A stretch of 51,809 nt of DNA, taken from Eubacterium sp. (GTDB lineage Bacteria; Bacillota; Clostridia; Lachnospirales; Lachnospiraceae). The stretch's first letter is position 1. Every line of letters begins with the position of its first letter. Shown here piece by piece: positions 2,995-45,665 of the stretch. The stretch is taken from positions 1 to 51,809 of the forward strand of contig JAFUDC010000035.1 in assembly GCA_017459345.1 (NCBI GenBank), read 5' to 3'. The translations under genes were made by a program, and so were the position numbers. Below the pieces are notes generated by a model. It worked only from the letters and a program-made list of their open reading frames with translations, ran no database searches and was not told the origin of the DNA.

Positions 2995-3002
2995 TGTACG
3001 AC

Positions 3003-3031: not shown

Positions 3032-3108
3032 CTGTTATGTCTGAAACAAAACAGGCACGAAAAGATATACCGGTTTTCTCAATACTATTAAAATAAAAAG
3101 GACTCATT

Positions 3109-4242: not shown

Positions 4243-4265
4243 CATTCAACACAGGAGGCCGTATT

Positions 4266-6498: not shown

Positions 6499-6574
6499 TA
6501 AGAATACCCTCCTCAATATCATTCGTTGTAAGCTTCTGTAAAAACATATCACTATGATATGCATGTTAGAATAT

Positions 6575-6639: not shown

Positions 6640-7761
6640 TTAACTTGATTTCTTCCAGATTGCATATCCACATTTTTCAATGTATCCAGTCAGTTTTTTG
6701 ACAGGATCATCCTGATCATAGTACCATCTGACATATTCGGCCCCTGACAGGTCATATTTACTCTTATCGACAATGGCTCCCGTCTTCTCGCTGATGAATT
6801 CAAGAATCCATTCATCGTCAGATAAGTATACCTCTTCGTCCAGGACACTCTTACCATAAAGCAGATGATCAAAGGATGCATTAAGGATGTCCACGCCGCA
6901 ATATGATCTGATCAGCCTCCACATATGACATCCGTCCAGCCTCGGGGTAATCTCCAGAATGACTGGATGTCCATGATCCAGCTTAATCTGACAGTAGCAT
7001 GGTCCATTATCTATCCCGACTTTCCTGGCGATACGAATAGTCAGGTCAATGGCGGCTTTCTGCTCATTTTTATCAGCAAAGCTTGAAGGGAGTCTGTGCT
7101 TCTTAATAATGCCTCCGGGATATTCTTCAAATGTAATCCTGTCCGAAACCAGGCCGAATTTAAGCTGCCCATCCTGAAAATAGGCATTCACCGATATCTC
7201 CGGACCATCAATATAAGACTCAATGATTACCTTTTTACATATGGAGTGTTCCATGGATGCTGAAAAGAACTTCCTGATCTCATCCGGTGAGTTCACACAG
7301 TAGCATCCCCGCTGTCCCTGGGAATCCACAGGTTTCATCATCCCGGGGAAGGAGCTAAAGGTAAGTGCCTCTGACAGCGATGAACAGGAAATATAATCAA
7401 TATTGCCGTCAAAATCTTTTCCCAGAGCCTCTCTGAGAAGGTGCTTGGAATGACAGATTCTGGCTGTCTCAGAGGAAATAAAATGGGGCAGTCCAAGTAT
7501 TTCACTTGCTTCCATCACGGTCGGCATAGCCAGGTCAGAGCCAACAGAATAGATGGCATCAGCTCCGAATTCTTCTGCGAACTTCACCACGCCGGCAGTA
7601 TCACATATGTTCACCTGCCTGAAATGGTGAAGCAGGGGGATGCCTCTGTCCGTGTCCGTATAACTGCAGCCTGCAACCTCATATCCCTTTTCTCTGCAGT
7701 ACTCTATTGCATCTATCTGTGCGTTTCCCACACCAAGAATTAGTAATTTCCTGAAACTCAT
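6640..7761 (-). CDS. ATP-grasp ligase (first of two in the locus)
   Basis: 373 residues from the ATG at 7761. A TTG 12 codons upstream is open but has no ribosome site, while GAGGAG stands 12 bases before the ATG. The N-terminus (LLILGVGNAQIDAI) is the Rossmann-like pre-ATP-grasp domain. The ATP-grasp core shows MMKPVDSQGQRGC (about 141-153) and the metal-binding segment EITPRLDGCHMW (about 270-281), where relatives usually have EINPRLGGG. Enzymes of this fold form an acyl phosphate from a carboxylate and ATP and join it to an amine or thiol. It is the last gene of the operon with the CapK-like and ketopantoate-reductase-like genes. The substrate is unknown. An amide bond between a small acid and an amino sugar or amino acid is one possibility. 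Confidence 0.82.
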   Translation of the reverse strand: MSFRKLLILGVGNAQIDAIEYCREKGYEVAGCSYTDTDRGIPLLHHFRQVNICDTAGVVKFAEEFGADAIYSVGSDLAMPTVMEASEILGLPHFISSETARICHSKHLLREALGKDFDGNIDYISCSSLSEALTFSSFPGMMKPVDSQGQRGCYCVNSPDEIRKFFSASMEHSICKKVIIESYIDGPEISVNAYFQDGQLKFGLVSDRITFEEYPGGIIKKHRLPSSFADKNEQKAAIDLTIRIARKVGIDNGPCYCQIKLDHGHPVILEITPRLDGCHMWRLIRSYCGVDILNASFDHLLYGKSVLDEEVYLSDDEWILEFISEKTGAIVDKSKYDLSGAEYVRWYYDQDDPVKKLTGYIEKCGYAIWKKSS

Positions 7762-7800
7762 TATATCTTCTAACTCCTCTGTTATAAGAGAAAGCAAACG

Positions 7801-9105
7801 TCAGACTTCGCAGACGAAGCACCTCTGTTTTCCGGTCTTATCCGGTTCAATTACATCTTTCCACGCGATATGGATCCTGAATTCATCTCCATAAAGTTCC
7901 TTGACTGAATTGATAAAATGCTGTTCAATCTCCTCTTTTGATTTGCTCTTATTATAAGGATCCGTTACCATCTGGATTTCCATGTCATGATAGCTCTTCT
8001 GAACAAATCTGAACTGGGATAATCCCACCGTATGATTGGCGATACGCATCAGCATCAAGGCGGATGACTCTACTCCATCCTCATGCTTAACCAGATCGTT
8101 CATTCTTCCCTCGATAGCGGTAAAATAGCGAAGACCATTCTTCACATAAGATCTTCCGATATCCAGCACATCATAATTAATCAGCGGATAGGTCTTCTTG
8201 TAGAGGGCAGTCAGGATTATTCTGCCATTGTCAGCCAGCTGGTTGTTCTCGTCATACACGTTGGCCACTGCCATGTCATTGGCAACATAATAAAAGTCAT
8301 TTCCGGGGAACTTATATATACAGCTTCCCATCTCCGATATCCCGTATGCATCAATCAGACCATCTCCGAATGTTTCATACAGGAGCTTGACGGTCACTTC
8401 ATCGACCATCTCACTGACAGGCACATATAATTTAGGCCGATAGATCGGCATGTCGTGAGTTTTTGAGTAAGCTGCGATACGCACCAGACAATTCCGCCTG
8501 AAGCAGAGCATATCCGGCTTGTAGGCATTGATGTCCCGGATGGTATCCGCAATGCCATCCCCCACACAGTAGTCCTCGGATACAACCTTGCGGCGCATCA
8601 GCCCGAACCTCTGGATAAAGGAATCCCGGCTTTTATCGTTGGGATCCTTGTGACTGGTCTGGAAGGAGTACATTTTCCCTCTTAAGGGCCGGTAACCTGC
8701 TGCAGACAGAACTCTTACCCAGTTGGCATCACTGAAGGCCTGCTCTTTCTGAGTATAAAGAGTTTTAAGGGGTACTCCGGAGGATCCGCTGGTGCTAAGA
8801 ACATTAACACGATCATGAATCTCGGGATGATCGTCCCACTCCTTCTGCATCCAGAGCCGTAATTCCGGCTTGGAAAGTGTTGGGAACTTGACAAGGTCCT
8901 CGCTGCAGTGATAATCATTGGGTGTTGTTTTGGACTGTTTGAATTTCTTTCTGTAAACGGGGATATTCCATGCCCTTTTCATCAGCTCATGGATCTTTTT
9001 ATTCTGATCCGCCTTAATCTTTTTCGGATCACCCTCAAAGGATTTCTTTAAGGTTAACAGATAATACAATGTATAGACATTTTTCATTCTCTTTTGAAAA
9101 CTCAT
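7801..9105 (-). CDS. CapK/PaaK-like adenylate-forming enzyme (phenylacetate-CoA ligase family)
   Basis: 434 residues, typical for the CapK/phenylacetyl-CoA ligase-like family. The phosphate-binding loop STSGSSGVPLK lies at 104-114, the adenine-binding DAYGISEMG at about 252-260, and YPLINYDVLDIG at about 306-317. It begins with a basic, amphipathic N-terminus. The family activates a carboxylic acid as an acyl-adenylate and often transfers it to CoA; CapK-like versions are common in capsule and surface-sugar clusters. A GAGGAG site precedes the ATG. It lies between the reductase and the ATP-grasp ligase, so it may activate or transfer the acid those enzymes handle. The acid itself cannot be told from the sequence. 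Confidence 0.8.
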   Translation of the reverse strand: MSFQKRMKNVYTLYYLLTLKKSFEGDPKKIKADQNKKIHELMKRAWNIPVYRKKFKQSKTTPNDYHCSEDLVKFPTLSKPELRLWMQKEWDDHPEIHDRVNVLSTSGSSGVPLKTLYTQKEQAFSDANWVRVLSAAGYRPLRGKMYSFQTSHKDPNDKSRDSFIQRFGLMRRKVVSEDYCVGDGIADTIRDINAYKPDMLCFRRNCLVRIAAYSKTHDMPIYRPKLYVPVSEMVDEVTVKLLYETFGDGLIDAYGISEMGSCIYKFPGNDFYYVANDMAVANVYDENNQLADNGRIILTALYKKTYPLINYDVLDIGRSYVKNGLRYFTAIEGRMNDLVKHEDGVESSALMLMRIANHTVGLSQFRFVQKSYHDMEIQMVTDPYNKSKSKEEIEQHFINSVKELYGDEFRIHIAWKDVIEPDKTGKQRCFVCEV

Positions 9106-9150
9106 GACTGGCTCCTCTCATCTTTATGGGAATAGCTGTATCAGACAGCT

Positions 9151-10089
9151 CTAGGATGACATACTCTTTCTTCGTATTATTCCAATCTTTTCACGGGCAG
9201 TGATGGCCAGGTAGAGAACCTTGTTGATGGGAGTGTCTATCCCGTGTTTCTTCCCAAGCTCAATCACCGTACCGGCATATTCTTCTATCTCCGTCGTCCG
9301 TCCTGCCTCCAGGTCCTGGAGCATGGACATCTTCTTGTCCGGAGGATAACTGATCAGGATATCAATAATTTCGTCACGGTCTTTCTTCGTCACATTTACT
9401 TTTTCGCATTCTGCCAGCATCAGGATTTCATCCATGCATAAGGCCATCAGCTCGGGAATCTCAGGCACCATGCCAAAGAAACCACACTCAACCCCTGTTT
9501 CTGCGGCTACCTGACTGGCCCCGGTATTGAGCATCCACTTAAGCCACTGGACCCTCCGCATGTCCTCATAGATTTTTATGTTGATTCCCAGCTTCTTAAG
9601 CCGTTCATGTACCTGTGCTACTTCCGGCTTAATCTCTCTGTTATCGGCATAGCCGATTTTTGTCTCTCCTAAGGTGTTATAATAAACCCTGTGCCCAATC
9701 CGATGGGCATCGGTCCGCTGCACAGTGCCATATAAAACCCTGTTCCCGGGAAAGCGGCTTTTTAACCGTTCGGTAGTCCGGATCCCGTTCTGCAGAGGCA
9801 GTAAAATCGTATCCTCCGAGATCAGATCCGCCATGTCTTCCATGACCGAATCCAGCGAATAAGTCTTCACCACAATAATCAGTAAATCCAGGTGGATCTG
9901 CTGGGCCGGATCGGCATATATTACAGGATGCATAATCTCGTTGTTGACAGAAATCCCCTTTTCCCTGAGACGTAAGGCACGATTCCCCTTTGCCAGAAGA
10001 TAAGTATGTTCCGGATCTGCTTTATGAATAAGCGAAAACATGGCGCTGCCGACAGAACCGGCACCGATCAGGCCTATATTATTAATCAT
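9151..10089 (-). CDS. 2-dehydropantoate 2-reductase family (PanE/ApbA-like) NAD(P)H oxidoreductase
   Basis: 312 residues, full length for the family. The dinucleotide-binding GAGSVG is at 9-14, VKTYSLD near 74-80 and PLQNGI near 98-103. The catalytic lysine and partner asparagine appear as K184 and N188 in WLKWMLNTG. PanE reduces ketopantoate to pantoate, but this family also contains reductases for other branched 2-keto acids. The neighbours are an acid-activating enzyme and an ATP-grasp ligase rather than panB or panC. I therefore infer that it reduces a keto acid of the local pathway, although a housekeeping PanE cannot be excluded. It is first in its operon, with a promoter at 10112-10141. 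Confidence 0.8.
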   Translation of the reverse strand: MINNIGLIGAGSVGSAMFSLIHKADPEHTYLLAKGNRALRLREKGISVNNEIMHPVIYADPAQQIHLDLLIIVVKTYSLDSVMEDMADLISEDTILLPLQNGIRTTERLKSRFPGNRVLYGTVQRTDAHRIGHRVYYNTLGETKIGYADNREIKPEVAQVHERLKKLGINIKIYEDMRRVQWLKWMLNTGASQVAAETGVECGFFGMVPEIPELMALCMDEILMLAECEKVNVTKKDRDEIIDILISYPPDKKMSMLQDLEAGRTTEIEEYAGTVIELGKKHGIDTPINKVLYLAITAREKIGIIRRKSMSS

Positions 10090-10111
10090 TACATTACCTC
10101 TTATCCTTGCT

Positions 10112-10141
10112 ATTATCAGTTCGCAACTTGGCGATTGACAA
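10112..10141 (-). promoter_or_regulatory. Promoter of the ketopantoate-reductase/CapK/ATP-grasp operon
   Basis: Minus-strand TTGTCA (10136-10141) and GATAAT (10112-10117), 18 bases apart, lie about 25 bases before the ATG. Its -35 box overlaps that of the divergent epimerase promoter by five bases. Confidence 0.6.
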
Positions 10142-10163
10142 ATAAGTACTCCGGTAGTATTTT
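10135..10163 (+). promoter_or_regulatory. Promoter of the epimerase gene
   Basis: Consensus TTGACA (10135-10140) and TATTTT (10158-10163) are separated by exactly 17 bases. The start codon at 10217 has AAAAGGAG at 10202-10209. Confidence 0.7.
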
Positions 10164-10216
10164 TTTTATTAAATAAGATAAATAAAGGTCTTCAACACCA
10201 CAAAAGGAGTTTGAAT

Positions 10217-11107
10217 ATGAAAATTGCAATTACTGGTGCCAGCGGTTATATCGGCTCATTCCTCCGGGAGGAACTGCAGCAGGAAAAGGATCGGGATTTA
10301 CTCTTGTTATCATCCAGACAGGAGGCACCGCCATTTGTCAAGGTATCCTATGATGATCCCGAAAGTTTACAATCTGTCCTTGCGGGGACAGACATCCTGA
10401 TCCATCTGGCTGCCATAAAAAAAGTAGCTTCATTTGATGATGCTTCAGAGAACATTTCCATGACCCGGCATATCATTGATGCCGCCTGCACAGCCGGAGT
10501 AAAGCAGGTCATTTATGCCTCCTCCATCTCTGTCTATTCAGGGGCATCTCTCCTCCCATGGTCTGAAGATATCTCAGAAAGACCGGAAACTCTGTATGGG
10601 ATGTCAAAGCTGACTTCAGAACACATCATCAGGATCCGCTGCAGCCATTCGGCCACTTCCTACACCAATCTCCGGCTTGCCCATATCATCGGTGACCATA
10701 TGCCCGGAAGCTATATGATGCCTGTCTTTTTTAAAAAGGCTGCCTCCGGTGAGGACATTACAATCCTGGGCAGAAGCACGGCAAGAAGGGAATTCGTCCA
10801 TGTATCTGATGTGTGCAGGGTAATCAGCCGCTGTATTGACAACCCCCGGGTTTATAACCAGACCATTAATGTGGGCTGCGGTTCCGGAATCACCAATGAA
10901 GAAGCCGCTCTTTCAATCAGCCGCTTCTGTCCTGCCACCCATGTTAATATGGCTGACAAAGAGGATAATTCCATCGTTTCCTCCTATATGGATGTTGCCA
11001 GACTGAAAGCCTTGAATCTTCCTCTTCCCTGTGATTCTGTCGAAGCAATAAGGCGAATATGTATGAAGATTGAGTCGACCCGCCAGGCTAAGACAGGAGT
11101 CTGCTAA
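10217..11107 (+). CDS. NAD-dependent epimerase/dehydratase (extended SDR)
   Basis: 296 residues from the ATG at 10217. A TTG two codons earlier is only a few bases from the ribosome site and is less likely. The nucleotide-binding motif GASGYIG is at 7-13, the active-site strand ASSISVYSG near 101-109, and the catalytic pair Y127/K131 in YGMSK. This is the UDP- or TDP-sugar epimerase/4-reductase group of extended short-chain dehydrogenases. It is the only plus-strand gene in the 6.6-22 kb block. Its end overlaps by four bases the end of the convergent fumarase alpha gene. A nucleotide sugar used by the nearby glycosyltransferase is the likely substrate, by inference only. It is shorter than GalE (about 330). 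Confidence 0.8.
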   Translation: MKIAITGASGYIGSFLREELQQEKDRDLLLLSSRQEAPPFVKVSYDDPESLQSVLAGTDILIHLAAIKKVASFDDASENISMTRHIIDAACTAGVKQVIYASSISVYSGASLLPWSEDISERPETLYGMSKLTSEHIIRIRCSHSATSYTNLRLAHIIGDHMPGSYMMPVFFKKAASGEDITILGRSTARREFVHVSDVCRVISRCIDNPRVYNQTINVGCGSGITNEEAALSISRFCPATHVNMADKEDNSIVSSYMDVARLKALNLPLPCDSVEAIRRICMKIESTRQAKTGVC

Positions 11108-11967
11108 AAATCTGCCCTGGACACGCGGGGTTCAAAACAGCAGCAGGGTCTCATGCAGACGATTCTGACTCCACTTGCCCTCTGGGGGCCAACCTTCATA
11201 AAGGTGGCAAGCACGGATACTTTTCCTCCCAGCCCCATGGAACCGACCTTTGTCTGGTTTAATGCATCGGTAATTCTTTTTTCATATGCGGACTGTTTTT
11301 CATAATTCCCCTCTGCCATGGCCTGAAGCATCATGGCGGAGGCCTCATAATGGGATCTGCCAATGCCAACGGCAATTGTACATGGGGTACAGCCCAGCTG
11401 GCTGATGCTCTCCCTGGCCCAGGAGAGGATTTCCTCCACTACCACATCCATGCTGTGCCGGTGAAAGATCCGGTAGGTCTTTGCCCGTATCTCCGGACCG
11501 CCGCCCTGCATCAGGACGGTGAGCCTCAACCGGTTTTCGTCATCACTGTGGATGATCTGAACAGGAGCAGGGACCACGGTCTCGGATTCGGGATAGAGTC
11601 CTGCTGACTGGCTGACCCGCTCCACATCATCTCCACGGATGGCCATGGGTCTTCCGGGAAGTAGGGCAAGTCCGCTGGCAACCCCTTCATGAATTGCCAA
11701 AAGCCCTTCTCCTGTCAGGATTCTGTTTCTCCCGATTTCCAGAAGCAGATGAGGAATCCCCGTATCATCACACAGGGGACTGTGGTCCTTCCTTGCTGTC
11801 AGGGCATTATCCCGGATGGTATCAAGCGCCCAGGCTGCAAGCGGCTCTGTTTCTGCCTCCAATGCCTTCTCATAGGCTGCCAGCTTATCTTCGGAAAAGA
11901 CAGAGCTGGCATTGACCAGTGTTTCGGCCACCTTTTTCCTGATCTCATCACTATTTATGTTAATCAT
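11104..11967 (-). CDS. Class I fumarase / L-tartrate dehydratase-type alpha subunit
   Basis: 287 residues from the ATG at 11967, preceded by GGAGGGG. The frame opens nine codons earlier but without a ribosome site. The sequence matches the alpha part of oxygen-sensitive [4Fe-4S] hydro-lyases: PLCDDTG (64-70, C66), GCTPCTIAVGIG (192-203, C193/C196) and a cysteine-rich end CMRPCCC (271-277) at the place of the third cluster ligand. The family adds or removes water on a small di-acid such as fumarate, tartrate or mesaconate. The beta subunit is encoded just upstream, overlapping by eight bases. Beta-before-alpha is the reverse of the usual order. The context argues for a specialised acid rather than the citric acid cycle. 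Confidence 0.82.
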   Translation of the reverse strand: MININSDEIRKKVAETLVNASSVFSEDKLAAYEKALEAETEPLAAWALDTIRDNALTARKDHSPLCDDTGIPHLLLEIGRNRILTGEGLLAIHEGVASGLALLPGRPMAIRGDDVERVSQSAGLYPESETVVPAPVQIIHSDDENRLRLTVLMQGGGPEIRAKTYRIFHRHSMDVVVEEILSWARESISQLGCTPCTIAVGIGRSHYEASAMMLQAMAEGNYEKQSAYEKRITDALNQTKVGSMGLGGKVSVLATFMKVGPQRASGVRIVCMRPCCCFEPRVSRADF

Positions 11968-12472
11968 ATATGGATTCCCCTCCTGCAATGGCAATGACTG
12001 CCGGATAGTCTTCTACCTCAAGCTCATAGAAGGCTTCCATTCCCAGCTCCGGGAAGGCGGTCAGCTTTTTCGCTTTTGTCCGGCTGTTCAGCAAAGCCGT
12101 AACCGGTGGAATTACAGCGTATACCGCATGCTGTTCCTCAAGCTTTGCCACCGTCTCTGCCTTCAGAGCGCCTTTACCCAGATGCATACGTATTCCTGCT
12201 TTGGAAAGAGTCTCCATGGTACTTTCTATCTCATATTTATTACTGGAAGTAGGCCCCACACCAGCCTGGCTGACTGCAGTGTGAAATATCAGCCCCCCTT
12301 CCAGATTCAAATGACTTTCTTTAATTGTTCCATCTTCGATCATGGCTGCAATCTTTGGCAAAACCGCATCTCTTCCACAGAAAATTCGGCCGGAAATCAG
12401 CACCTGATCTCTGATTTTTAACTGGTCTGTTTCCTCCCTGCTTATCGGGAATACCAACTTCTTTTTCATCAT
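11960..12472 (-). CDS. Class I fumarase / L-tartrate dehydratase-type beta subunit
   Basis: 170 residues, slightly shorter than most beta subunits. It contains the signature GPTSSNKYE near 74-82 (family GPTTSxRM) and GKGAL near 99-103, which forms the swivelling domain that closes over the substrate. The start ATGATG overlaps the stop codon of the dehydrogenase gene upstream (ATGA), so translation is probably coupled. An alternative start at the second ATG (12469) changes only one residue. The protein should pair with the alpha subunit to make one hydro-lyase. In the signature, asparagine and tyrosine replace the usual arginine and methionine, which may mean a changed substrate. Confidence 0.8.
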   Translation of the reverse strand: MMKKKLVFPISREETDQLKIRDQVLISGRIFCGRDAVLPKIAAMIEDGTIKESHLNLEGGLIFHTAVSQAGVGPTSSNKYEIESTMETLSKAGIRMHLGKGALKAETVAKLEEQHAVYAVIPPVTALLNSRTKAKKLTAFPELGMEAFYELEVEDYPAVIAIAGGESIYD

Positions 12473-13443
12473 CCAATTATCCTGTTTCCCTCGATTTCCT
12501 CCAGACGGCCCTGATCATACATGCTAATATTATAAACTGCCTTTTCCATCATCCGCGAGAAGGCCTCATAGGATACTCCTCCAATATGGGGTGAGAGCAA
12601 TGCCTGGTCAAAAGCTGCCAGCCTGGATATACTTTTCGGAGGTTCCTCCTCAAAGGTATCAATCCCACAGGCTGATATCTTCCCGCTTGCCAGGGCATCG
12701 GCAAGATCATCCTCACACACGAGACGGCCGCGGGCAGTATTGACCAGAACTGCCCCATCTTTCATGAGTGCGATACTCTTCCTGTTGATCAGGTACTCAT
12801 TATCTTTGTTCAGACCGCAGTGGAGAGAAAGGATATCTGCCTGCCGCAGCAAAGCCTCCTGATCAAGATAGGAAACTCCCAGACTCCTTTCTTCTTCGGG
12901 GGAAAGGCGGATACGGTCATAGTAGATAATCTTCACACCAAAAGCTGACAGTCTCTGTGCGGTCAGTTTCCCGATATGTCCCATACCAATCAGGCCGATA
13001 GTCCTCCCGAAAATCTCATGGGTCTTCAGGCCTGTTTCCTGCTTTTTCCAGATACCGTCCCTCATCTGCCTGTTAACCATATAGCTTTTTTTGAGAGCAG
13101 ATAACATCAGCATCACGGTATGCTCCGCCACACTGATGGCATTTACTCCCCGATTGACATAGAGGGGAATGCCGCAGTTCTTCAAAGCATCAAGATCAAT
13201 GTTGTCTAATCCCACACCGGTTCTCTGTACCATCCTCAATTTCTTAGCAGCCAGTACCAGGTCCCGATCCACTTTGAGCCGTCCGCTCACAAGCAGATAG
13301 TCTGCCTGTCCGATTGCTTCAAGCAGGGCCTCTTTATCCACCCGGGGAAGCATGAGCAAGTAAAAGTCGTCACCGACCGCCTCCTCCAGAATCTTAAAGG
13401 GGGTTCCCTGATATTGATTCGTCAATAGAATTGTTCTTTTCAT
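12469..13443 (-). CDS. D-2-hydroxyacid dehydrogenase (phosphoglycerate dehydrogenase-like)
   Basis: 324 residues with the complete D-isomer-specific 2-hydroxyacid dehydrogenase layout. The NAD-binding GLIGMGHIGK is at 150-159 and the catalytic set is R238 (NTARGR), E267 (FEEEPP) and H286 (SPHIGG). There is no regulatory ACT domain, unlike many SerA proteins. The enzyme interconverts a 2-hydroxy acid and its 2-keto acid using NAD. It stands between the C-C lyase and the split hydro-lyase, so a plausible order is hydration to a hydroxy acid, oxidation to a keto acid and C-C bond making or breaking. This chain is inference. Confidence 0.85.
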   Translation of the reverse strand: MKRTILLTNQYQGTPFKILEEAVGDDFYLLMLPRVDKEALLEAIGQADYLLVSGRLKVDRDLVLAAKKLRMVQRTGVGLDNIDLDALKNCGIPLYVNRGVNAISVAEHTVMLMLSALKKSYMVNRQMRDGIWKKQETGLKTHEIFGRTIGLIGMGHIGKLTAQRLSAFGVKIIYYDRIRLSPEEERSLGVSYLDQEALLRQADILSLHCGLNKDNEYLINRKSIALMKDGAVLVNTARGRLVCEDDLADALASGKISACGIDTFEEEPPKSISRLAAFDQALLSPHIGGVSYEAFSRMMEKAVYNISMYDQGRLEEIEGNRIIG

Positions 13444-13455
13444 CTCTCTTTTTCC

Positions 13456-14589: not shown

Positions 14590-14593
14590 GTCA

Positions 14594-15865
14594 TTAACCT
14601 TCATCAGTCACTGAAGCCATATCCTTTATCCCCAGCACAAGGCTTCTGTCCGTGACATCCTTTCCTTTATCGTCTATAACCTTAATCACTTTCATGATTT
14701 CCTGGAGTCTTAAAAAGCATTCCTCCGGTCCGGAGCCTTCTACCAGCAGAGCAGCAACTCGGGAACTGCTGACCTTCTCTGTTGTGACAGCCATCCCCTT
14801 TGTCTTCTGGTAAAAGCATTCGGTAATCAGACCCTTCTCTTTCAGGATATCTACGCCCTCGAGATGATCAAAGACGCACTCATGAGCCTGAAGCTGGTAG
14901 ATCAGAAATCTGCTCTTCTCTTTGCGGGGCTCCTGATCATTGTCCAGATGGAGATAGGAATCAATGGAAGCCTCCAGCATATCGAATCCGGCATTATGTT
15001 CCATCAGATAGTAACAGGTTCCCCCACCCAGTCTTGGAGAAAACTCGATGACATCCACAGACCCGCCTTTACCCACCATGACCTGGAGAAACAGAGGCGT
15101 GGTATTCAGGCCGAAAACCTGGGCAACCTTCGTGGCAATCTCCTCGATTCGTTTCCTGACGGCATCACTGAGTGAGGCAGGGCTGATACCTCCATAGTAT
15201 CGTATCTCCTTGCCGGAGACATAACTCACCCTGTTCAGGGTCGTGACCAGTCTGGCCTTTCCATCCTTCACATAGGTATATACATTAATCTCTCTGCCGG
15301 TTTTAAACTCTTCAACAATGGCTTCGCTGCTCCAGCTCCACTGACAGGCCTCTCTTACTGCTTCCTCCAGATTGGCCGCTACTTCCACCCTGGTTACACC
15401 GGCAGAGCCGCAGCAATCGACAGGTTTTACCACAAGAGGATAATCTATGGCAAGATTGCTTAAATCGGTATCTGTGCCCACCTGATAGTGTCTGGCAGTG
15501 GGGATTCCGTGATCAAGCATCATCTTCTTCATATATTTTTTGTTGGTAACATTAACCGCTGTCTGACTGTCGAAGGGATGGGGCAATCCCAGCTTTTCCG
15601 AGACCTTCATGGCAATCATCAGCTGCTGGTCCAGACAGGGGGACACCACCAGTTTGGCATTCGTTTCTTTCGCAATCTGAAGGACCATATCCTCATCCAT
15701 GGCACTCTCTTTGCGATGCTCGTCTGCGTGGACAGCTGCCGGAGGATTATCAAAATAATCAATCAGGATAGTGTGATATCCTCTCTTTTTTAACTTATCC
15801 AGGGCTGCTCCATGCGGATAGATACCCCCAAGCACGATGGCAACGGGTTTATTTTCATTTTTCAT
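14594..15865 (-). CDS. ATP-grasp ligase (second of two in the locus)
   Basis: 423 residues. The N-terminal domain starts VAIVLGGIYPHG. The ATP-grasp core has LVVKPVDCCGSAGV (about 144-157) and the magnesium-binding EFSPRLGGG (274-282), all key positions kept. A C-terminal region of about 110 residues follows. The family activates a carboxylate as an acyl phosphate for attack by an amine. Its stop codon is just upstream of the C-C lyase start, so the two are tightly coupled. Ter-type clusters also pair an ATP-grasp with this C-C lyase, which supports a shared pathway. It is only distantly similar to the ATP-grasp protein at 6640-7761, so the two probably act on different substrates. The ATG has an AAGGAAG site. 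Confidence 0.83.
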   Translation of the reverse strand: MKNENKPVAIVLGGIYPHGAALDKLKKRGYHTILIDYFDNPPAAVHADEHRKESAMDEDMVLQIAKETNAKLVVSPCLDQQLMIAMKVSEKLGLPHPFDSQTAVNVTNKKYMKKMMLDHGIPTARHYQVGTDTDLSNLAIDYPLVVKPVDCCGSAGVTRVEVAANLEEAVREACQWSWSSEAIVEEFKTGREINVYTYVKDGKARLVTTLNRVSYVSGKEIRYYGGISPASLSDAVRKRIEEIATKVAQVFGLNTTPLFLQVMVGKGGSVDVIEFSPRLGGGTCYYLMEHNAGFDMLEASIDSYLHLDNDQEPRKEKSRFLIYQLQAHECVFDHLEGVDILKEKGLITECFYQKTKGMAVTTEKVSSSRVAALLVEGSGPEECFLRLQEIMKVIKVIDDKGKDVTDRSLVLGIKDMASVTDEG

Positions 15866-15925
15866 ATCTGTCTTCCTTATCTTTCAACTATTCATAAGAG
15901 TGGGCAGGATTCATGCTCAGCAGCT

Positions 15926-16816
15926 TTATTTCCATATGGCCGGAGACATCACTGAATCGGGATAGTATCTTTCAATCATGCCTTTAACCAGTACGATCTG
16001 CTTTGCTCTCTTCTTTGCATCATCCACAGAAGTATCCCAACTATGGGTCTTTGCCACCGAGCCGCCTGTTTTTAAATAAATCGGTGCTGCAACCCGAATC
16101 ATGTCAGGTACTTCATAATGCCTGATAAATCCTCCGGAAGAAGCCGGGTTCTCTGTATGAATATCAATCGGAATGTCAATTGCCTGACGAATGGCACCCA
16201 GCATCTGCAGCTGAATATCTCTGACCGGGTTGAAGGAATCCGCGCCAATGCTTTCCAGAAGCTTTGCCGAACAGGGATTGCCATGACCGGTGTGGGCAGA
16301 GACCTTAAAATGGCAGTCTGAAGGAATCTCTCCTGCCTTGCGCATCTGATTCAGTATCCACAGGCACCCTTCATCATAAACCATAAAACCTCTGGCCCCA
16401 AGATCAACTGCTCGACGGACTTCTTCAACAGCACGCACGATCTGCTCCTGTCCCCGGAGTCTGTAACCCATTCTCTGCCCTTCCGGCGTGTGAACGGATG
16501 CGCTGGTATCTGTGGTGGCTCGCGGCCCGATCGCCAGTATCAGCTGCACATGATACTCACGGGACAGGGAGACCATCTCTTTGATCTCATCATCCAGAAG
16601 GGTCCATATTCCCTTTGTCTGTGTGACCCGGTGTATGGGAGCACCATAACCGTCGAGAGCCTCAAGAAGAGCCCTCATCACGCCAGGGCTCTGTATCCCC
16701 GGTACTTCAAATCTGTATTGTCCGCCATCCGCAAAGGTCTTTCCTGAGGGTGAAAGATCATAGGCATCACCACCCGGAAGGCCCAGGGATTCCAAAAAAG
16801 CTCTTGTTTTTTTCAT
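15926..16816 (-). CDS. U32-peptidase-like TIM-barrel protein of unknown function
   Basis: 296 residues, soluble, with no signal peptide. The alternating strand and helix pattern (QLILAIGPR, GARGFMVYDEG, CHFKVSAHTGHGN, PIDIHTENP, APIYLKTGG) indicates a TIM barrel. I recognise it as the group often annotated U32-family peptidase, although it lacks the long C-terminal parts of true U32 proteases such as YegQ/RlhA. Conserved-looking polar residues are E149 of YDEG, H175/H178 of SAHTGHGN and E222 of HTENP, which could form an active site. No function is established to my knowledge. Its position between the PrpD-like and ATP-grasp genes suggests that it modifies the same small acid. The name 'peptidase' should not be taken literally. 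Confidence 0.65.
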   Translation of the reverse strand: MKKTRAFLESLGLPGGDAYDLSPSGKTFADGGQYRFEVPGIQSPGVMRALLEALDGYGAPIHRVTQTKGIWTLLDDEIKEMVSLSREYHVQLILAIGPRATTDTSASVHTPEGQRMGYRLRGQEQIVRAVEEVRRAVDLGARGFMVYDEGCLWILNQMRKAGEIPSDCHFKVSAHTGHGNPCSAKLLESIGADSFNPVRDIQLQMLGAIRQAIDIPIDIHTENPASSGGFIRHYEVPDMIRVAAPIYLKTGGSVAKTHSWDTSVDDAKKRAKQIVLVKGMIERYYPDSVMSPAIWK

Positions 16817-16899
16817 ATTCCCAGTCTCTTTCCTTTATCTTAAAACACTGTTATCTTGCGGAATCATCTTTGGATTCCTGTGTTTTGTAACTATATATC

Positions 16900-18243
16900 T
16901 TAGACTATATCCCACAATCGGTCAAGTCTGCCTTCTATATTATAAATACATGAAAGAATTTCTTCAGCTCTAACCGAGTCAACCCCGGCAACCGCCATCA
17001 ATGAGCGATATTTCTCCTCAACCATGGATCTGTCCATAGGGTTCTCCGGCTCTCCAAGGGGATGATCAACCCGACAGGAGTATCGGTTTTCAGGCATCAC
17101 CACTGTCACGACAGCTGCCCGTTTTCCAGGCACCAGAGCTGATAATTCCGGATCCTCCCTTACCTGGACTTTCTGACTTAAACTCAGGACGGCTTCGTCC
17201 TTCCAGGAGTCCTGCTCATACTGCAGAGCATCGACCCTGCCTTTTTGCAGGGCAGCTGCCACCGCATAGGGAATACTCATCTTTGCCGAAGCTGAACCTG
17301 TAACATCCCGGTGGTCGTGTCCCTTCACGGCCATCCCGTAGGTATCTACGATTACACTGATGATGGCTTCCGGATCCAGCTGATGAGCCTCACGGATACG
17401 CAGGGCTGCTTCAATAGGGGCATGGGCATGTCTGCATGAAGCATAAGGCTTTCTGTATATATTCTCGATGGCCAATACCGGCATAGTGCCCTTAAGAAGG
17501 ATCTCCTGGTTCACATCCCCGGCCATTGCCTTAAAGAAACCTCTTGGCCCCCCCAGGATATCCGGAGGTCCGCATAATCCCATAGTGCCGACCCGAAAGG
17601 CGTTGACAGCTGCCACCGCAGCCCGTCCAGCATTGTATGGCTTTAATTCGGAGCCGTTATCTCCAGCCTCCAGCAAGCCTGCCGCATCGGTTGCCGCCGC
17701 AGTGATCACCGCATTCCACTGATTGCGGGGCAGTCCAAGAGCCGCTGCCAGTCCCAAAGCTGTACCGACCGTGGTACAGGTCGCTGTGGTATGATATCCT
17801 TTCAGCTTATGCCGGGGCTGCATGGAAGCGGCCAGCCTTACTGTTGCCTCATAGCTGACAATGATACCCCTGAGCAGGGAAACCCCGTCAAGGCCCCGGT
17901 CCTGGCAGACTGCTAATACTGCGCTGATCACAGGGGCTCCCAGGTGAATCATGGCAAAGCGGTGCCCGTCATCCAGCTCAGGGGCATGGGCATTCATGGC
18001 GTTAAGCATTGCTGCCTCCAGGATGCCGCACTTTTCTCCCAGGCCAATCAGGGAAACATTGCCCCGTGGCAGAGCCTGCTGCCTGATCCACTTCTTTTCT
18101 TTATCACCAAGTTCATGAACTCCCATATAGGTACAGGCAAAATAATCAGCCAGGCAGTCTTTTGTCTGCTCCATGATCTTTTCTTCCGGATATCGGGCAG
18201 AAAAATCCCAAATGGCATCAAGAAATCTTTTCGTTATCGTCAT
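16900..18243 (-). CDS. MmgE/PrpD-family dehydratase or decarboxylase
   Basis: 447 residues, full length for the MmgE/PrpD fold. The helical first domain carries ELDDGHRFAMIHLGAPVI (near 91-108), in which D93, D94 and H96 sit at the active-site position of the family, and YHTTATCTTVGTALG follows near 149-163. Known members are 2-methylcitrate dehydratase and cis-aconitate decarboxylase, acting on tricarboxylic acids. No prpB or prpC is nearby, so propionate catabolism is not supported. The start overlaps the preceding glycosyltransferase gene by 26 bases and AGGGGA lies almost against the ATG. An in-frame stop just upstream means no earlier start exists, so coupled translation is likely. It links the sugar genes and acid genes in one operon. 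Confidence 0.82.
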   Translation of the reverse strand: MTITKRFLDAIWDFSARYPEEKIMEQTKDCLADYFACTYMGVHELGDKEKKWIRQQALPRGNVSLIGLGEKCGILEAAMLNAMNAHAPELDDGHRFAMIHLGAPVISAVLAVCQDRGLDGVSLLRGIIVSYEATVRLAASMQPRHKLKGYHTTATCTTVGTALGLAAALGLPRNQWNAVITAAATDAAGLLEAGDNGSELKPYNAGRAAVAAVNAFRVGTMGLCGPPDILGGPRGFFKAMAGDVNQEILLKGTMPVLAIENIYRKPYASCRHAHAPIEAALRIREAHQLDPEAIISVIVDTYGMAVKGHDHRDVTGSASAKMSIPYAVAAALQKGRVDALQYEQDSWKDEAVLSLSQKVQVREDPELSALVPGKRAAVVTVVMPENRYSCRVDHPLGEPENPMDRSMVEEKYRSLMAVAGVDSVRAEEILSCIYNIEGRLDRLWDIV

Positions 18244-19165
18244 TCCCCTGAATCACCTCACGGACATTATACTGTGGTTTGTCACTGATCGTCATATAGA
18301 TACGGCCAAGATACTCTCCCATGATCCCCAGCATAATCATCATGATACCGCCAATAAAAAGGACCGTGATCATGGTGCTTGTATAACCAGCCACTCCTGA
18401 ACCCCTGATCAGCTTTCGCAGAAAAAGATAGATAATTCCGATAAAACCTGCTCCCGAAAACAGGAATCCCAGGTAGGTTGCCAATCTTAATGGAAGCATG
18501 GAAAAACTGATAAAAAGGTTCAGCCACATGGCGAACAGTTTTCTGAAAGTGTATCCTGATTTACCAACCATTCGCTCCTTATGTTCTATCTCAACATTGG
18601 CAAACTTCCATGCCACTGTCATCATGTAGGATCCGATGGATACAAAGGGGCTGTGATAGGACATCATGGCTTCTGCAACCATCCTGCTCCAGCATGTAAA
18701 TGATGACCTTCGAACTCCTTTGGGTTTGCTGCCCATCTTTTCCGCCAGGGCATTGTGAAGATTGGAGGTGGTCCGCTTAAAAAAGCTATGTTTTTTATTC
18801 TTAAAGTCAGCATAAACAACGTCATAGCCTTCCTGAAGCTTATCCACCAGCTTAAAAATACCATAGGCAGGATGCTGACCATCATCATCCATAAAAACGA
18901 TCACATCTCCCCTGGCATAGGGCAGGGCGGCAAGCTTTGCCGAAGCCTGTCCGTAATTTCTGGAAAGATTCACTCCTGTAATTCTGGGATCAGCTGCGCA
19001 GAGCTCCCTGATCACCTCAAAGGTATTATCCTTAGGTGATCCGTCATTGACCAGAACTATCTGATAGTCCTCCGGTCTTTTTGCAAATTCTTCTTTTATT
19101 CCCTGAACCACCGTGGGAAGTGTCTTTGATGAATTATAGCAGGGAATACATACGGATATCAACAT
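18218..19165 (-). CDS. GtrB-like polyprenyl-phosphate glycosyltransferase (GT2), second copy
   Basis: 315 residues with the same plan as the enzyme at 4266-5201. The GT-A motifs are VNDGSPKD (39-46) and FMDDDGQHP (91-99), there are two C-terminal membrane helices between about 225 and 300, and the end GEYLGRIYM is typical. Sequence identity between the two copies is only moderate, so they probably use different donors. It should load a sugar onto undecaprenyl phosphate facing the cytoplasm. The next genes upstream in the operon are a GT-C-like membrane protein and a flippase, which would supply the other two parts of a three-component glycosylation system. The acid-making genes start directly after it. 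Confidence 0.82.
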   Translation of the reverse strand: MLISVCIPCYNSSKTLPTVVQGIKEEFAKRPEDYQIVLVNDGSPKDNTFEVIRELCAADPRITGVNLSRNYGQASAKLAALPYARGDVIVFMDDDGQHPAYGIFKLVDKLQEGYDVVYADFKNKKHSFFKRTTSNLHNALAEKMGSKPKGVRRSSFTCWSRMVAEAMMSYHSPFVSIGSYMMTVAWKFANVEIEHKERMVGKSGYTFRKLFAMWLNLFISFSMLPLRLATYLGFLFSGAGFIGIIYLFLRKLIRGSGVAGYTSTMITVLFIGGIMMIMLGIMGEYLGRIYMTISDKPQYNVREVIQGNDDNEKIS

Positions 19166-19202
19166 AATCTCTCTCTTTTCATCAATCTGAAATATCTCTT
19201 GT

Positions 19203-20891
19203 CTATTCTGTAACTATTCTGTATACGTTCCACTTACCGATCTTGTCTACCTTTACGGCCTTTGCATCTTTCGCATACCAGTTTCTGAGGTATTCCACCA
19301 TGATATCGATATTCTTATCAATCAGGAGAACCCGATCGTTGTCAATCATATCCCGGAAACATATGGGATTGCTTACCGGATAGGAATCCAGAACGCTCCT
19401 TGCCGTTTCTGTCTGAGCAGCCCAGCCGCCTAAGGAATATTGATTATTCGCTATTCCCACAGGTATGGGATCGAAGACCCCATAGGCATGATAAAAAGAA
19501 ACAGTCCCGATGGTCTTCAGATATAGGTGATCCTGATCATCATGAATCTGTTCTATTATCTTCCGATTGGCCTCCTGGCTTTTCGCCCGGTTCTGACCGT
19601 TTATCCTCATCTGCCCCCCATGCTGATACAGAGTCAGCACGAGGAGAACTCCTGCCAGAAGTACAGTAACCGTCTTTGCCATCCTCCTTCTCTCACAACT
19701 GTAGATCAGAAGCAATACAAAGACAGCCGCAAGCCAGATACCCACGTCAATCCTGCGCTTCATGAACCGCCCCTGATAATAGGTGTATGCATATATGATA
19801 AGGACCACCAGCATCTCATAGAAGAGGGCTATCCACTTTTTGAAGCTTGCCTTTCCCCAGATCAGGCAAAAAACAGCCGCAATGGCAAAGCACCAGAAGA
19901 CAGACAGTTTTTTCAGCCCCTTTAGGAATTTGTGCACAAACTTAAGGACATAAGCCTTGTCAATCTTCTTTTCAGAGGAAAGACTGTTTTTTAGTTCTAC
20001 TATTTTATGCAGTGACTGGGCAGTATACCTTTCCGAATCCTGGAAAGTCCATCTCCGAAGCAGCTTGATGGCACTTAGATCAAAGCCCATCTCCTCGTAC
20101 TCTTTTTCATGACCTTTATACTGGGGAAATCCATAGTCTGACAGCTTAACCCTCTGGGAATTGAAGTCTCTGTAATAACTCCAGCTCTCCGATCGATACT
20201 GCAGCTGGTCAAACTTATCCACCCCAAAAACGGCCAATAGCAAAAAAGCCCCTGTCAGCAGACTGATAATCAGACGTTTCCCGGGTTTTTGGCTATCATA
20301 ATCAGTAAGAGTCAGAATATAGTAAAAAGCAGCAGCAGAAAAGATGATAAGGATACATTTGAACACACTCATCCGGTACATTGCCCCCAAAAGGACCAGC
20401 AGGCAGCCCAGAAACAGATTTCTCTTCCGTAACTTGTCCTGAAAAAACGTATAAAACAAGAGGGTAAAGCCTGCAACGACCAGAACAGCTGCTGTTTTGG
20501 AGAATTGCGGTCTGACATAAAGATCATATCCAAATACCAGCAATATGGAAACGATCAGTCCCAGGTATCCTTTGTACTGCAGATGATTCATCAGACACAG
20601 GGTCAGTACAATCAGGGAAATCAGTATAAAGAAATACTGCATCAAGGCATACCAGGGAATGGAGGCCGTAATCTGATAGAGATGAACATAGATAAACCCC
20701 AATATATAATTCTGAAAAATCACATGGGGATCATAAACCCCCATGGACCCATTCACCAGATTAGCAAGAGCAGAATCATCATTCACTTCATAAGCAGGAG
20801 AAAACAATACTAAATATATCAGCAGTATAGCTGCATTGATCAGTATTGCCATCAGTAAATCGCTCTTCTTTTCATTTTTTCCTGTTCCCAT
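19203..20891 (-). CDS. Multispanning membrane protein, GT-C (GtrII-like) glycosyltransferase candidate
   Basis: 562 residues with about ten to twelve hydrophobic helices over the first 420 residues and a soluble C-terminal part. After the first helix comes EVNDDSALANLVNG (about 35-48). An acidic pair in the first outer loop is where GT-C enzymes keep their catalytic acid. This matches GtrII-like and related integral transferases that move sugars from polyprenyl phosphate to an outer polymer. The start overlaps the flippase stop by one base (TAATG). The assignment rests on architecture and context, not on a strong family motif. A polysaccharide polymerase is the main alternative. Confidence 0.6.
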   Translation of the reverse strand: MGTGKNEKKSDLLMAILINAAILLIYLVLFSPAYEVNDDSALANLVNGSMGVYDPHVIFQNYILGFIYVHLYQITASIPWYALMQYFFILISLIVLTLCLMNHLQYKGYLGLIVSILLVFGYDLYVRPQFSKTAAVLVVAGFTLLFYTFFQDKLRKRNLFLGCLLVLLGAMYRMSVFKCILIIFSAAAFYYILTLTDYDSQKPGKRLIISLLTGAFLLLAVFGVDKFDQLQYRSESWSYYRDFNSQRVKLSDYGFPQYKGHEKEYEEMGFDLSAIKLLRRWTFQDSERYTAQSLHKIVELKNSLSSEKKIDKAYVLKFVHKFLKGLKKLSVFWCFAIAAVFCLIWGKASFKKWIALFYEMLVVLIIYAYTYYQGRFMKRRIDVGIWLAAVFVLLLIYSCERRRMAKTVTVLLAGVLLVLTLYQHGGQMRINGQNRAKSQEANRKIIEQIHDDQDHLYLKTIGTVSFYHAYGVFDPIPVGIANNQYSLGGWAAQTETARSVLDSYPVSNPICFRDMIDNDRVLLIDKNIDIMVEYLRNWYAKDAKAVKVDKIGKWNVYRIVTE

Positions 20892-22174
20892 TATACACCT
20901 GTATCCTTTTCTCTTTGAGTATGCAGTTTAGCAAACAGGATGATCCCCAGTATGATTGTCAAAACTGTCATAATTACAGCATAGAGCAGGGCAGCACCTA
21001 AAATCCCCTGGTTTTTAACAAATATTCCGGAAAAGATATAAGCAGCCAGGGCCGCAATTCCGTAGGAGATGATCAGTGTGTTATGAAGCCGTATGATAGT
21101 AATCACCGTAGTGAAAAAGACGGAGAAAGCCAGCATACCGCCGCCGATCATCACAATGCAAAGTTCTCTCTTATAGGCCTTTAGCTCCGCATTGAAAACC
21201 AGGGAAAGCACCGGAATCCCAATCGTGGCTGCTACCGCCAGTCCCAGGATGGTCAGTCCGATAATGACCAGAATCTGTCTTCGTATCAATCTGCGCAAGG
21301 TAGTCATCTCCTTGCGAACCCACAGCTCAGCATAGGTTGTCAGAATCGGATTAAAGATGAAGAGGGCAACCAGCTGCACCACATAGGCCGGCATAAAGAT
21401 CAGGTTGTAGGTGGCCTGAATCTCCTCTGTCAGGTAGGCATCTATGGCATATTTGGGCGCATTGCTTAAATACATATTAAGAAAGAGGCTTAAGAAGAGA
21501 GGGAGTCCTTCAAGAAACAGCCTCTTAAACCTGTCCAAACTGAGACCCGGCTTCAGCTCACAGTAATCTGCTGCCGCATTCAATGATGTAAATAAAAAAA
21601 TAACAAAGGACGAGATGGTGCAGGCCAGAGCAGAGATTACCAGATTATGCGTGATAATCAACATGACAGAAAATGAGACCACTTCCATGACATAGCGGAC
21701 AAAGGAACACTTGGTTGCCACATCAAGGCGCCCTTTTTGCTGCATCCTCCCGTGAAATACGTCAGAAAAAGCCTGGATGCAGCGGACGAAACACATCAGC
21801 ATGATCACGATAAACTTATCCGGGCTGTAGCCCCTGGTAAAGGTCCCGTAGATACAGTATCCAAGACTGGCCAGCATCATGGCGATGCAGGTAATGATCC
21901 GCATCCCGTAATATTCATTAAAGCTGTACCTCTCCATAACATCAGATGACTGAAACTTACGGATACCGAACTGACCAATATGAAGCATCAAAGAGCCGAT
22001 GGCATAGGCAATGCTGAATATCCCGGCATCATAGGTTCCGTTGGTCCGGTTCAGCACCATGAGAATGAGTGCTGATTCCGCTGCGGAGAAGGTGGCATTC
22101 ACAGAGTTCCAGATATATGAGCTTCTTTTGACATTATTGGTCCTGTTTAATAATAATCTGATTGATTTAAGCAT
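20891..22174 (-). CDS. Wzx-like polysaccharide/lipid-linked sugar flippase
   Basis: 427 residues with about twelve hydrophobic segments, in the size range of Wzx and MOP-superfamily flippases. SSYIWNSVNATFSAAESAL at the start and IGIPVLSLVFNAEL in the second half resemble oligosaccharide flippases of firmicute surface loci. It would turn an undecaprenyl-linked sugar from the inner to the outer face. It is the first gene of the long minus-strand operon, with a promoter at 22236-22264. In classical three-part sugar decoration systems a small GtrA/GtcA protein does this job; none is present here, so this protein may replace it. Confidence 0.8.
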   Translation of the reverse strand: MLKSIRLLLNRTNNVKRSSYIWNSVNATFSAAESALILMVLNRTNGTYDAGIFSIAYAIGSLMLHIGQFGIRKFQSSDVMERYSFNEYYGMRIITCIAMMLASLGYCIYGTFTRGYSPDKFIVIMLMCFVRCIQAFSDVFHGRMQQKGRLDVATKCSFVRYVMEVVSFSVMLIITHNLVISALACTISSFVIFLFTSLNAAADYCELKPGLSLDRFKRLFLEGLPLFLSLFLNMYLSNAPKYAIDAYLTEEIQATYNLIFMPAYVVQLVALFIFNPILTTYAELWVRKEMTTLRRLIRRQILVIIGLTILGLAVAATIGIPVLSLVFNAELKAYKRELCIVMIGGGMLAFSVFFTTVITIIRLHNTLIISYGIAALAAYIFSGIFVKNQGILGAALLYAVIMTVLTIILGIILFAKLHTQREKDTGV

Positions 22175-22235
22175 GATAACTCCGTTATCTTCTTCTGGCT
22201 TCGAAAACTTTATGTCTAATCTAAACTACTGCTAC

Positions 22236-22264
22236 AGTATACCTTATTCTCCTGAAATAATCAA
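22236..22264 (-). promoter_or_regulatory. Promoter of the 11-kb glycan and acid operon
   Basis: Minus-strand TTGATT (22259-22264) and TATACT (22236-22241) are separated by 17 bases, about 60 bases before the flippase ATG. No other comparable promoter or terminator was seen between here and 11104, and the ten genes are closely spaced or overlapping, so they probably form one transcript. Confidence 0.65.
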
Positions 22265-23081: not shown

Positions 23082-23146
23082 GGCTAACAATCTCCTTGTT
23101 ATGATTTTATCCGTTTTATGCGTTAATTATTTCATAAACTTTGAGT

Positions 23147-23175
23147 ATTATAACCCAATTGTTAAGCCATGTCAA
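23147..23175 (-). promoter_or_regulatory. Perfect consensus sigma-A promoter
   Basis: TTGACA (23170-23175), a 17-base spacer and TATAAT (23147-23152) on the minus strand match the consensus at every hexamer base. It drives the NlpC-like gene starting at 23081. Confidence 0.85.
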
Positions 23176-23209
23176 GGTTTATTAATATTTTTGTAACATT
23201 TAAAGGACT

Positions 23210-27034: not shown

Positions 27035-27035
27035 G

Positions 27036-45629: not shown

Positions 45630-45665
45630 TAATATCAGCAGTTGACTGCCATGAAGCAGCCATCC

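Follow-up and report, generated by a model that had tools for sequence, protein, structure and literature searches.

The window analyzed here is the 51,809-nucleotide contig JAFUDC010000035.1 of a Eubacterium sp. genome (assembly GCA_017459345.1), and its genes of interest, judged from the gene reading and from the distribution of their relatives, form two units rather than one (Table 1). Unit 1 (22174-11104, minus strand) encodes a flippase, a large membrane protein, a GtrB-like glycosyltransferase (GtrB2), an ATP-grasp ligase, a 2-hydroxyacid dehydrogenase, and five enzymes that we refer to as the core: an MmgE/PrpD-family protein (PrpD), a U32-like TIM-barrel protein, a C-C bond lyase, and the beta and alpha subunits of a split hydro-lyase (FumB and FumA). 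All of the unit 1 genes are open; neighboring genes are spaced by -35 to +83 bases and overlap in five places, which makes plausible the single operon that a first-pass annotation had proposed for this minus-strand run. Unit 2 consists of a ketopantoate-reductase-like enzyme (KPR), a CapK/PaaK-like adenylating enzyme (CapK) and a second ATP-grasp. The best explanation of unit 1, to which we assign a probability of about 0.5, is that a module of five acid-making enzymes is here linked to a surface-sugar system, the acid and its reactions being predicted from the genes. The five genes stand together in dozens of bacteria, including many gut inhabitants of animals, and their enzymes probably produce an unusual small acid that is attached to surface sugars.

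The five core genes form a conserved module across many Clostridia. A collection with one genome per species (84,980 species) contains 348 stretches that encode a relative of the U32-like protein, and we examined the best 80, which as the top of the list are the loci closest to the query. Beside the U32 gene in these 80 loci, tblastn finds the C-C lyase in 77, PrpD in 71, and FumA and FumB in 69 each, with the complete five-gene set present in 61 loci and in 40 of the 43 that have at least 8 kb on each side. In a family sample of 299 genomes that includes the source genome, the U32 gene occurs in eight, the source genome among them; the identical eight genomes carry the full-length C-C lyase (E below 1e-130), for which 15 others show partial matches of 34 to 47% identity, and also the divergent FumA (E below 1e-100), with a ninth genome (G046) carrying a lower-scoring relative at 50% identity. 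The chance that 8-genome sets coincide among 299 is about 7e-16 if the genomes are taken as independent, which is not fully true, and the joining of the U32, C-C lyase and FumA genes is far beyond chance. Most carriers are labeled as Clostridia, and 8 of the 80 bear labels of other phyla (Bacteroidales, Victivallales, Fibrobacter, Billgrantia), though labels of draft genomes may err; if they are correct, horizontal transfer would explain the presence of the module in these phyla.

An origin in a mobile element or virus was considered and set aside, as a scan of viral contigs with the U32-like protein yielded zero relatives. The corresponding plasmid scan gave four distant U32 relatives (Thermomicrobium, Enterobacter, Streptomyces and Nonomuraea). 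The Thermomicrobium and Enterobacter contexts are without module genes, except for a weak dehydrogenase match in Enterobacter, and on the Streptomyces plasmid, which is unannotated at the U32 site, U32 alone of the module queries matched. The Enterobacter plasmid region (L010, 8898-20861), where the U32-like gene stands with an aminotransferase and iron-containing redox enzymes, resembles a small-molecule gene cluster.

The C-C lyase scores 366.7 bits against PF15617 (gathering cut-off 28.4), a family membership that was overlooked when the protein was first described as CitE-like. Its AlphaFold model (pLDDT 86) has CLYBL, malyl-CoA lyase, citramalyl-CoA lyase and CitE as the top Foldseek matches, with E values from 1.9e-9, so that the predicted fold is the TIM barrel of the CitE/malyl-CoA lyase type; none of the five core genes is a CoA-activating gene. 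For PrpD, the nearest solved structures are Bacillus subtilis IRG1 and IDS-epimerase. The evidence for the U32-like label is mixed: the protein reaches 11.5 bits against PF01136, where the cut-off is 22.4, while two of three distant relatives pass it at 23.0 and 25.3, and its predicted model (TIM barrel, pLDDT 85) has a U32 protein (5d88) as the first Foldseek match, followed by class II aldolases and ICL/PEPM-type barrels. With a second aligner CutC and RuBisCO-like folds lead. Class II aldolase, RuBisCO-like, CutC and, in Foldseek, ICL/PEPM-type barrels have similar scores, with no clear winner that would point to a reaction, and searches of PDB sequences with the U32-like protein and the C-C lyase found no usable match.

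The hydro-lyase passes the domain test for class I fumarases and tartrate dehydratases, with PF05681 and PF05683 both above cut-off, and fails the curated NCBIfam test, with TIGR00723 at 76 of the 145 bits needed and TIGR00722 at 99.3 of 100.65. In usual class I fumarases the GSEN and GPTT[SA]xR motifs bind substrate. Among the clustered relatives of the module proteins, FumA has LCDD[TS]G and GGGPxIR in 66 of 66 and GSEN in 0 of 66, and FumB has GPTSSNK in 63 of 63 and GPTT[SA]xR in 0 of 63, a pattern that on these sequences marks the module hydro-lyase as a distinct subfamily. The source genome has a separate, ordinary fumarase on another contig (C28), which scores 392 bits compared with 163 for the module copy and is 24% identical to the module FumA; a housekeeping origin of the module Fum genes is rejected on account of this separate enzyme.

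What follows the core differs among relatives. In the 80 loci, endings were assigned by de novo clustering of neighbors and then by a tblastn rule with a 50% identity limit. The clustering alone recovers a thiamine diphosphate (ThDP)-dependent decarboxylase in 45 loci and an aldo-keto reductase in 45; by the final rule, 46 loci have the decarboxylase with the reductase, 20 have the 2-hydroxyacid dehydrogenase, 5 have an unrelated dehydrogenase (Ldh2), 1 has both endings (L080), 2 have the decarboxylase only, 1 has the reductase only, and 5 have neither. The last group (L030, L043, L054, L057 and L070) consists of short or divergent loci, and in L030 the decarboxylase and reductase were found by clustering yet fall under the 50% limit. 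Of the 25 dehydrogenase-type loci, 21 have an ATP-grasp gene no more than 4 kb from U32, compared with 1 of the 46 decarboxylase-type loci (Fisher p 5e-13), and the C-C lyase tree divides along the ending types with one change (SH-aLRT 96), this being a tree of 68 rows made by a quick method and carrying a long-branch warning for the joining of L090 to L024 and L025. The two endings, dehydrogenase plus ATP-grasp, which is the version in the window, and ThDP decarboxylase plus aldo-keto reductase, which the first-pass annotation had not noticed, are thus largely exclusive. Since a 2-oxo-acid decarboxylase can stand in for either of two unrelated kinds of 2-hydroxyacid dehydrogenase, the core most simply makes a 2-oxo acid, and the gene anatomy points to one such acid with two fates. 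With the product constrained in this way, a small number of purified enzymes would be enough to test the pathway.

The decarboxylase raises the question of phosphonates. The one module decarboxylase tested (from L048) passes the phosphonopyruvate decarboxylase model TIGR03297 (397.8 compared with 312.5 bits), and the Ldh2 of L022 is nearest to L-sulfolactate dehydrogenase, under the cut-off, both of which would fit a core that makes phosphonopyruvate or sulfopyruvate independently of PEP mutase, with the decarboxylase and the 2-hydroxyacid dehydrogenases then yielding phosphono- or sulfo-acids. It would also fit such a route that PEP mutase is above cut-off in 9 of 48 genomes with decarboxylase-type loci and not in the other 39, genomes whose completeness is not stated; the count covers 45 of the 46 loci with decarboxylase and reductase (L051 was left out) together with L030, L080 and L094. 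The source genome has no PEP mutase above cut-off. No chemistry known to us would allow enzymes of these families to build a C-P or C-S bond. Where PEP mutase does occur, seven neighborhoods were fetched of 11 places above cut-off, and six of the seven hold a separate decarboxylase that is 43 to 45% identical to the module reference, compared with 49 to 85% (median 77) for 44 module copies; in L058 the module-type and the separate decarboxylase both lie within one 21 kb stretch. The scarcity of PEP mutase, taken with this separate and distant decarboxylase, makes it most likely that the module enzyme uses another 2-oxo acid, and on sequence grounds it is probably misnamed as a phosphonopyruvate decarboxylase. 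In L028 a fused PEP mutase stands just behind the module (15989-17998; residues 385-668 of its 669 form the PEP mutase part) and no second decarboxylase was found in the stretch, so the phosphonate route survives, as a very improbable one. As a separate observation, the PEP mutase genes of L058 (16031-20474) directly adjoin the decarboxylase-type module.

The coupling of acid-type enzymes to surface-sugar genes, which the first-pass annotation had proposed, is borne out by the neighborhoods. Loci shorter than 19 kb (37 of 80) and control stretches shorter than 19 kb (6 of 40) were excluded from the marker counts, and the control windows come from a nonrandom choice, contig C1 of 14 family genomes, three of which are module carriers. 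With a set of glycan markers derived from the window, 23 of 43 loci have a marker compared with 3 of 34 controls (p 3e-5), so that the acid genes are not a set that occurs always without sugar genes, the outcome that the annotation had named as refuting its proposal. With a wider set, which is biased because it was partly picked from the loci themselves, the counts are 37 of 43 loci and 3 of 34 controls, with a marker in 13 of 13 loci of the 2-hydroxyacid dehydrogenase type and 20 of 26 of the decarboxylase type. The module is therefore enriched beside glycan genes. Tallies of Pfam families, which cover 97 of 178 and 81 of 200 operon neighbors and the 25 commonest families, include O-antigen ligase (Wzy_C), sugar transferase (Bac_transf), flippase and CpsB/CapC, and also PF14397 sugar-transfer ATP-grasps and LAL_C2 ligase domains.

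A GtrB relative at 50% identity or more accompanies the module in 8 of the 80 loci, and the genomes of all eight have WecE, the aminotransferase for dTDP-4-amino-4,6-dideoxyhexose, above cut-off, compared with 12 of 42 other tested genomes (p 2e-4), although these are not eight independent cases because the GtrB-linked loci include close relatives. WecE lies in or next to the module in L016, L024, L025 and L035; of these, L024 belongs to Eubacterium ruminantium and L035 to Mediterraneibacter massiliensis, both of which are in culture. In the window, a WecE-type gene that had been overlooked is the likely source of the amino sugar; it scores 645.4 bits on TIGR02379 (cut-off 434.85; gluco) and 639.5 on NF008687 (cut-off 375; galacto), two models that name different epimers. 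Its substrate is supplied through RmlB in the textbook pathway, and RmlB is above cut-off in the source genome.

In the route that we propose, the C-C lyase, with its CitE fold, would act on a C-C bond in a small oxo acid, making or breaking it; removal and addition of water would fall to PrpD and the Fe-S hydro-lyase, and one more carbon-skeleton step to the U32-like barrel, with a 2-oxo acid as the presumed product of the core. The dehydrogenase in the window would reduce this to a 2-hydroxy acid, and the ATP-grasp would form an amide between that acid and the free amino group of the 4-amino-4,6-dideoxyhexose made by WecE. GtrB would load the sugar onto undecaprenyl phosphate, the flippase would then turn it outward, and the large membrane protein would move it to a cell-surface polymer. 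Unit 2, together with the YfhO, WecE and GtrB1 genes, may play a corresponding part for another acid, and the best reading of the window as a whole is of two neighboring acyl-group modules for a lipid-linked 4-amino-4,6-dideoxyhexose, in which the amide, the sugar and the export are deduced from the gene set. The earlier scheme in which a hydroxy or keto acid is made, attached to a sugar and exported is an argument from pathway logic. A different linkage is an unlikely alternative that has to be weighed here, in which the core acid is as proposed and is joined by an amide to a uronic acid via an amino acid, by an ester, or is released as a free small molecule. The presence of WecE in every GtrB-linked genome and its position at the module in four loci speak against this, and 30 of the 50 tested module genomes are without WecE above cut-off, which speaks for it, as do the PF14397 and LAL_C2 proteins among the neighbors; loci that lack WecE can nevertheless carry a different DegT gene, RmlB or a sugar transferase.

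Several observations weigh against the coupling of the core to surface sugars, or against the unity of the core itself. Despite ample room, PrpD is missing from L028, L054 and L061, FumAB from L043, L054, L064, L090 and L091, and the C-C lyase from L091. PrpD is also the least conserved core protein (27 to 57% identity, median 38, in 73 relatives), far less so than FumA (53 to 68%) and FumB (51 to 75%), and its role may therefore vary. PF15617 is not specific to the module, since among 398 genomes from the phylum 56 have it above cut-off, and one of the GtrB/WecE loci (L035) carries the decarboxylase ending. In the decarboxylase-type loci, a TRAP-type permease is present in 14 of 46 and a LysR gene in 7, and 6 of 26 loci of at least 19 kb have no glycan marker, so this branch may have a different function. 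The FumAB relative of G046 (L167, 3752-11871) sits in an apparently catabolic operon, with an RraA-like aldolase, DUF6282, a DUF1932 dehydrogenase, a TRAP transporter and a LysR-like gene, and we take the RraA-family aldolase, as a lead only, to hint at branched 2-oxo-dicarboxylates. These permeases, regulators and neighbors would suit a pathway by which an organic acid is taken up and then degraded or fermented, with the glycan neighborhood secondary. That pathway seems rather improbable for the module as a whole, more so than a different linkage of the acid, when TRAP is found in 0 of 25 dehydrogenase-type loci, when every locus of the 2-hydroxyacid dehydrogenase type with at least 19 kb has a marker of the wider, biased set, and when the unit in the window lies near Wzz, LCP and CpsB genes.

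Returning to the coupling of the acid module to surface sugars, a fuller version of it can be offered as a tentative proposal, held with less confidence than the coupling itself: the five-gene route would make a 2-oxo acid that is new to biology and would act as a plug-in for surface glycans across several phyla. The acid would have two end forms there, the amide of a 2-hydroxy acid and an alcohol, the latter reached when the misnamed "phosphonopyruvate decarboxylase" removes the carboxyl group and a reduction follows. If so, an unread metabolic pathway is common to many bacteria of gut and rumen, which carry its product on their surface, and the PF15617 lyase family, known from Ter operons, gains a second setting. 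The module genes that score as fumarate hydratase, U32 peptidase and phosphonopyruvate decarboxylase probably do something else, and their annotations would then be corrected.

Unit 2 is inherited separately from unit 1. CapK is found in 9 of the 299 family genomes, the source included, and CapK and U32 carriers share only the source genome. In the neighborhoods fetched for seven of the eight other CapK genomes, a GtrB1 relative (61 to 73% identity) is present in six, an ATP-grasp in six, YfhO in four, KPR in two and WecE in two, and no U32-module genes were found around any of the seven. From these neighbors, the most likely partners of unit 2 are the genes at 214-5201, and the window most likely holds two neighboring acid modules of the same logic. 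The first-pass annotation had instead placed the KPR/CapK/ATP-grasp operon and unit 1 in one system with one product (6640-22264), for which the genes being neighbors in the window is the argument; we reject this on the nonoverlapping distribution of CapK and U32, and it is the least probable of the alternatives considered. That annotation drew the locus too wide, yet the acid genes are a widely shared module with a readable logic, and on that account the find is better than was then stated. For the CapK-like protein, Pfam matches are absent at 1e-3 and the NCBIfam matches, of the PaaK type, are weak. Pfam supports the names first given to the flippase, GT2 transferase, PrpD, ATP-grasp, lyase, dehydrogenase and hydro-lyase of unit 1, and the GT-C label of the large membrane protein is unproven because no Pfam family is above cut-off; its weak relatives (21 to 27% identity) are in L024, L025 and L035. 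The top NCBIfam matches of GtrB2 are PRK10714 and PgfS, both under cut-off. For the short-chain dehydrogenase/reductase (SDR)-type gene between the units, no conserved link was found, the matches being just 22 to 27% identical and in 10 of the 80 loci.

The proposed scheme can be set beside several known systems, and in the accessible portions of the open literature on the gene set or its parts we found no description of the five-gene core. What the window has in common with the anthrose system and other N-acylated amino sugars is an aminotransferase of the WecE type and, in the proposed scheme, acylation at N4; the proposed dedicated acid core and ATP-grasp joining set it apart. Malyl, D-glyceroyl and hydroxybutanoyl amides are reported on amino sugars of bacterial polysaccharides: 4-amino sugars bear hydroxybutanoyl, D-glyceroyl and 3-hydroxy-3-methylbutyryl groups, and the malyl cases are 3-amino uronic acids (PMC3210612, PMC10609480). 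Three-component glycosylation systems likewise appear in two reports (PMC11127046, PMC8035078), and like those extracytoplasmic systems unit 1 joins a GT2 transferase, a flippase and a large protein in one operon; unlike them, it has a large Polysacc_synt-type flippase, an unproven GT-C and seven more enzyme genes.

With the Ter-operon module the window shares a PF15617 lyase, which is 49% (Brevibacillus) and 35% (Prescottella) identical to the lyases of two plasmids. Both of these inspected plasmid lyases lie beside a phosphoribosyltransferase and StiP, and one (Prescottella) is within a Ter operon with TerD genes, whereas phosphoribosyltransferase, StiP and Ter families are not above cut-off in the 20 window proteins scanned; PF15632 ATP-grasps do occur among the neighbors of module relatives. 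The 2-methylcitrate cycle and class I fumarase chemistry are similar in bringing a PrpD-family enzyme, a hydratase and a C-C lyase into one set, although none of the module proteins passes the NCBIfam cut-offs and the usual GSEN and GPTT[SA]xR motifs are absent as described above. Finally, the phosphonopyruvate pathway of PEP mutase and phosphonopyruvate decarboxylase resembles the alternative ending of the relatives through the one decarboxylase that passes TIGR03297, and differs in the rarity of PEP mutase and the separate decarboxylase beside it.

Table 1. Features of the window. Positions are those of the whole contig.
Feature	Position	Strand	Basis
YfhO membrane protein, linked to unit 2	214-2994	+	PF09586, E 3e-100
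WecE-type aminotransferase (dTDP-4-amino-4,6-dideoxyhexose)	3109-4242	+	NCBIfam TIGR02379 and NF008687 above cut-off
Second GtrB-like transferase (GtrB1)	4266-5201	+	PF00535
Second ATP-grasp, unit 2	6640-7797	-	PF13535; PF15632 (ATPgrasp_Ter) 26.3, cut-off 29.1
CapK/PaaK-like adenylating enzyme, unit 2	7801-9105	-	Weak PaaK match
Ketopantoate-reductase-like enzyme (KPR), unit 2	9151-10089	-	TIGR00745, 194 bits, cut-off 141
SDR-type NAD epimerase/dehydratase, between units 1 and 2	10211-11107	+	PF01370
Hydro-lyase alpha subunit (FumA-like), core, unit 1	11104-11994	-	PF05681 (Fumerase)
Hydro-lyase beta subunit (FumB-like), core, unit 1	11960-12472	-	PF05683 (Fumerase_C)
D-isomer 2-hydroxyacid dehydrogenase, unit 1	12469-13443	-	PF02826 and PF00389
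C-C bond lyase, core, unit 1	13456-14604	-	PF15617 (C-C_Bond_Lyase), E 1.3e-109
ATP-grasp ligase (ATPg1), proposed amide-forming step, unit 1	14594-15865	-	PF13535, E 9.5e-16
U32-like TIM-barrel protein, core and best marker, unit 1	15926-16816	-	Predicted fold; PF01136, 11.5 bits
MmgE/PrpD-family enzyme, core, unit 1	16900-18243	-	PF03972 and PF19305
GtrB-like polyprenyl-phosphate glycosyltransferase (GtrB2), unit 1	18218-19165	-	PF00535, E 1.6e-30
Large membrane protein, candidate GT-C glycosyltransferase, unit 1	19203-20891	-	No Pfam family above cut-off
Flippase (Polysacc_synt), unit 1	20891-22174	-	PF01943, E 1.2e-9, above cut-off
Capsule-type control genes: ParA/tyrosine-kinase-like ATPase, Wzz, LytR-CpsA-Psr (LCP), CpsB/CapC	25488-29017	-	PF13614, PF02706, PF03816, PF19567

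A promoter and terminator scan of the window against shuffled sequence gave 36 compared with 23.8 matches and 20 compared with 12.6, with nothing decisive. The glycan genes are flanked (5317-6564 and 22416-24490) by proteins with fn3 and YkuD (L,D-transpeptidase), weak CHAP, and Big_2 domains. Farther along, a minus-strand gene at 31371-39905 encodes a surface-type protein of 2844 residues, much longer than the products of the adjoining genes, and the region 44643-49878 holds genes for an AraC-type regulator and a class III aminotransferase, besides an NMT1-type ABC transport set that includes the binding protein.

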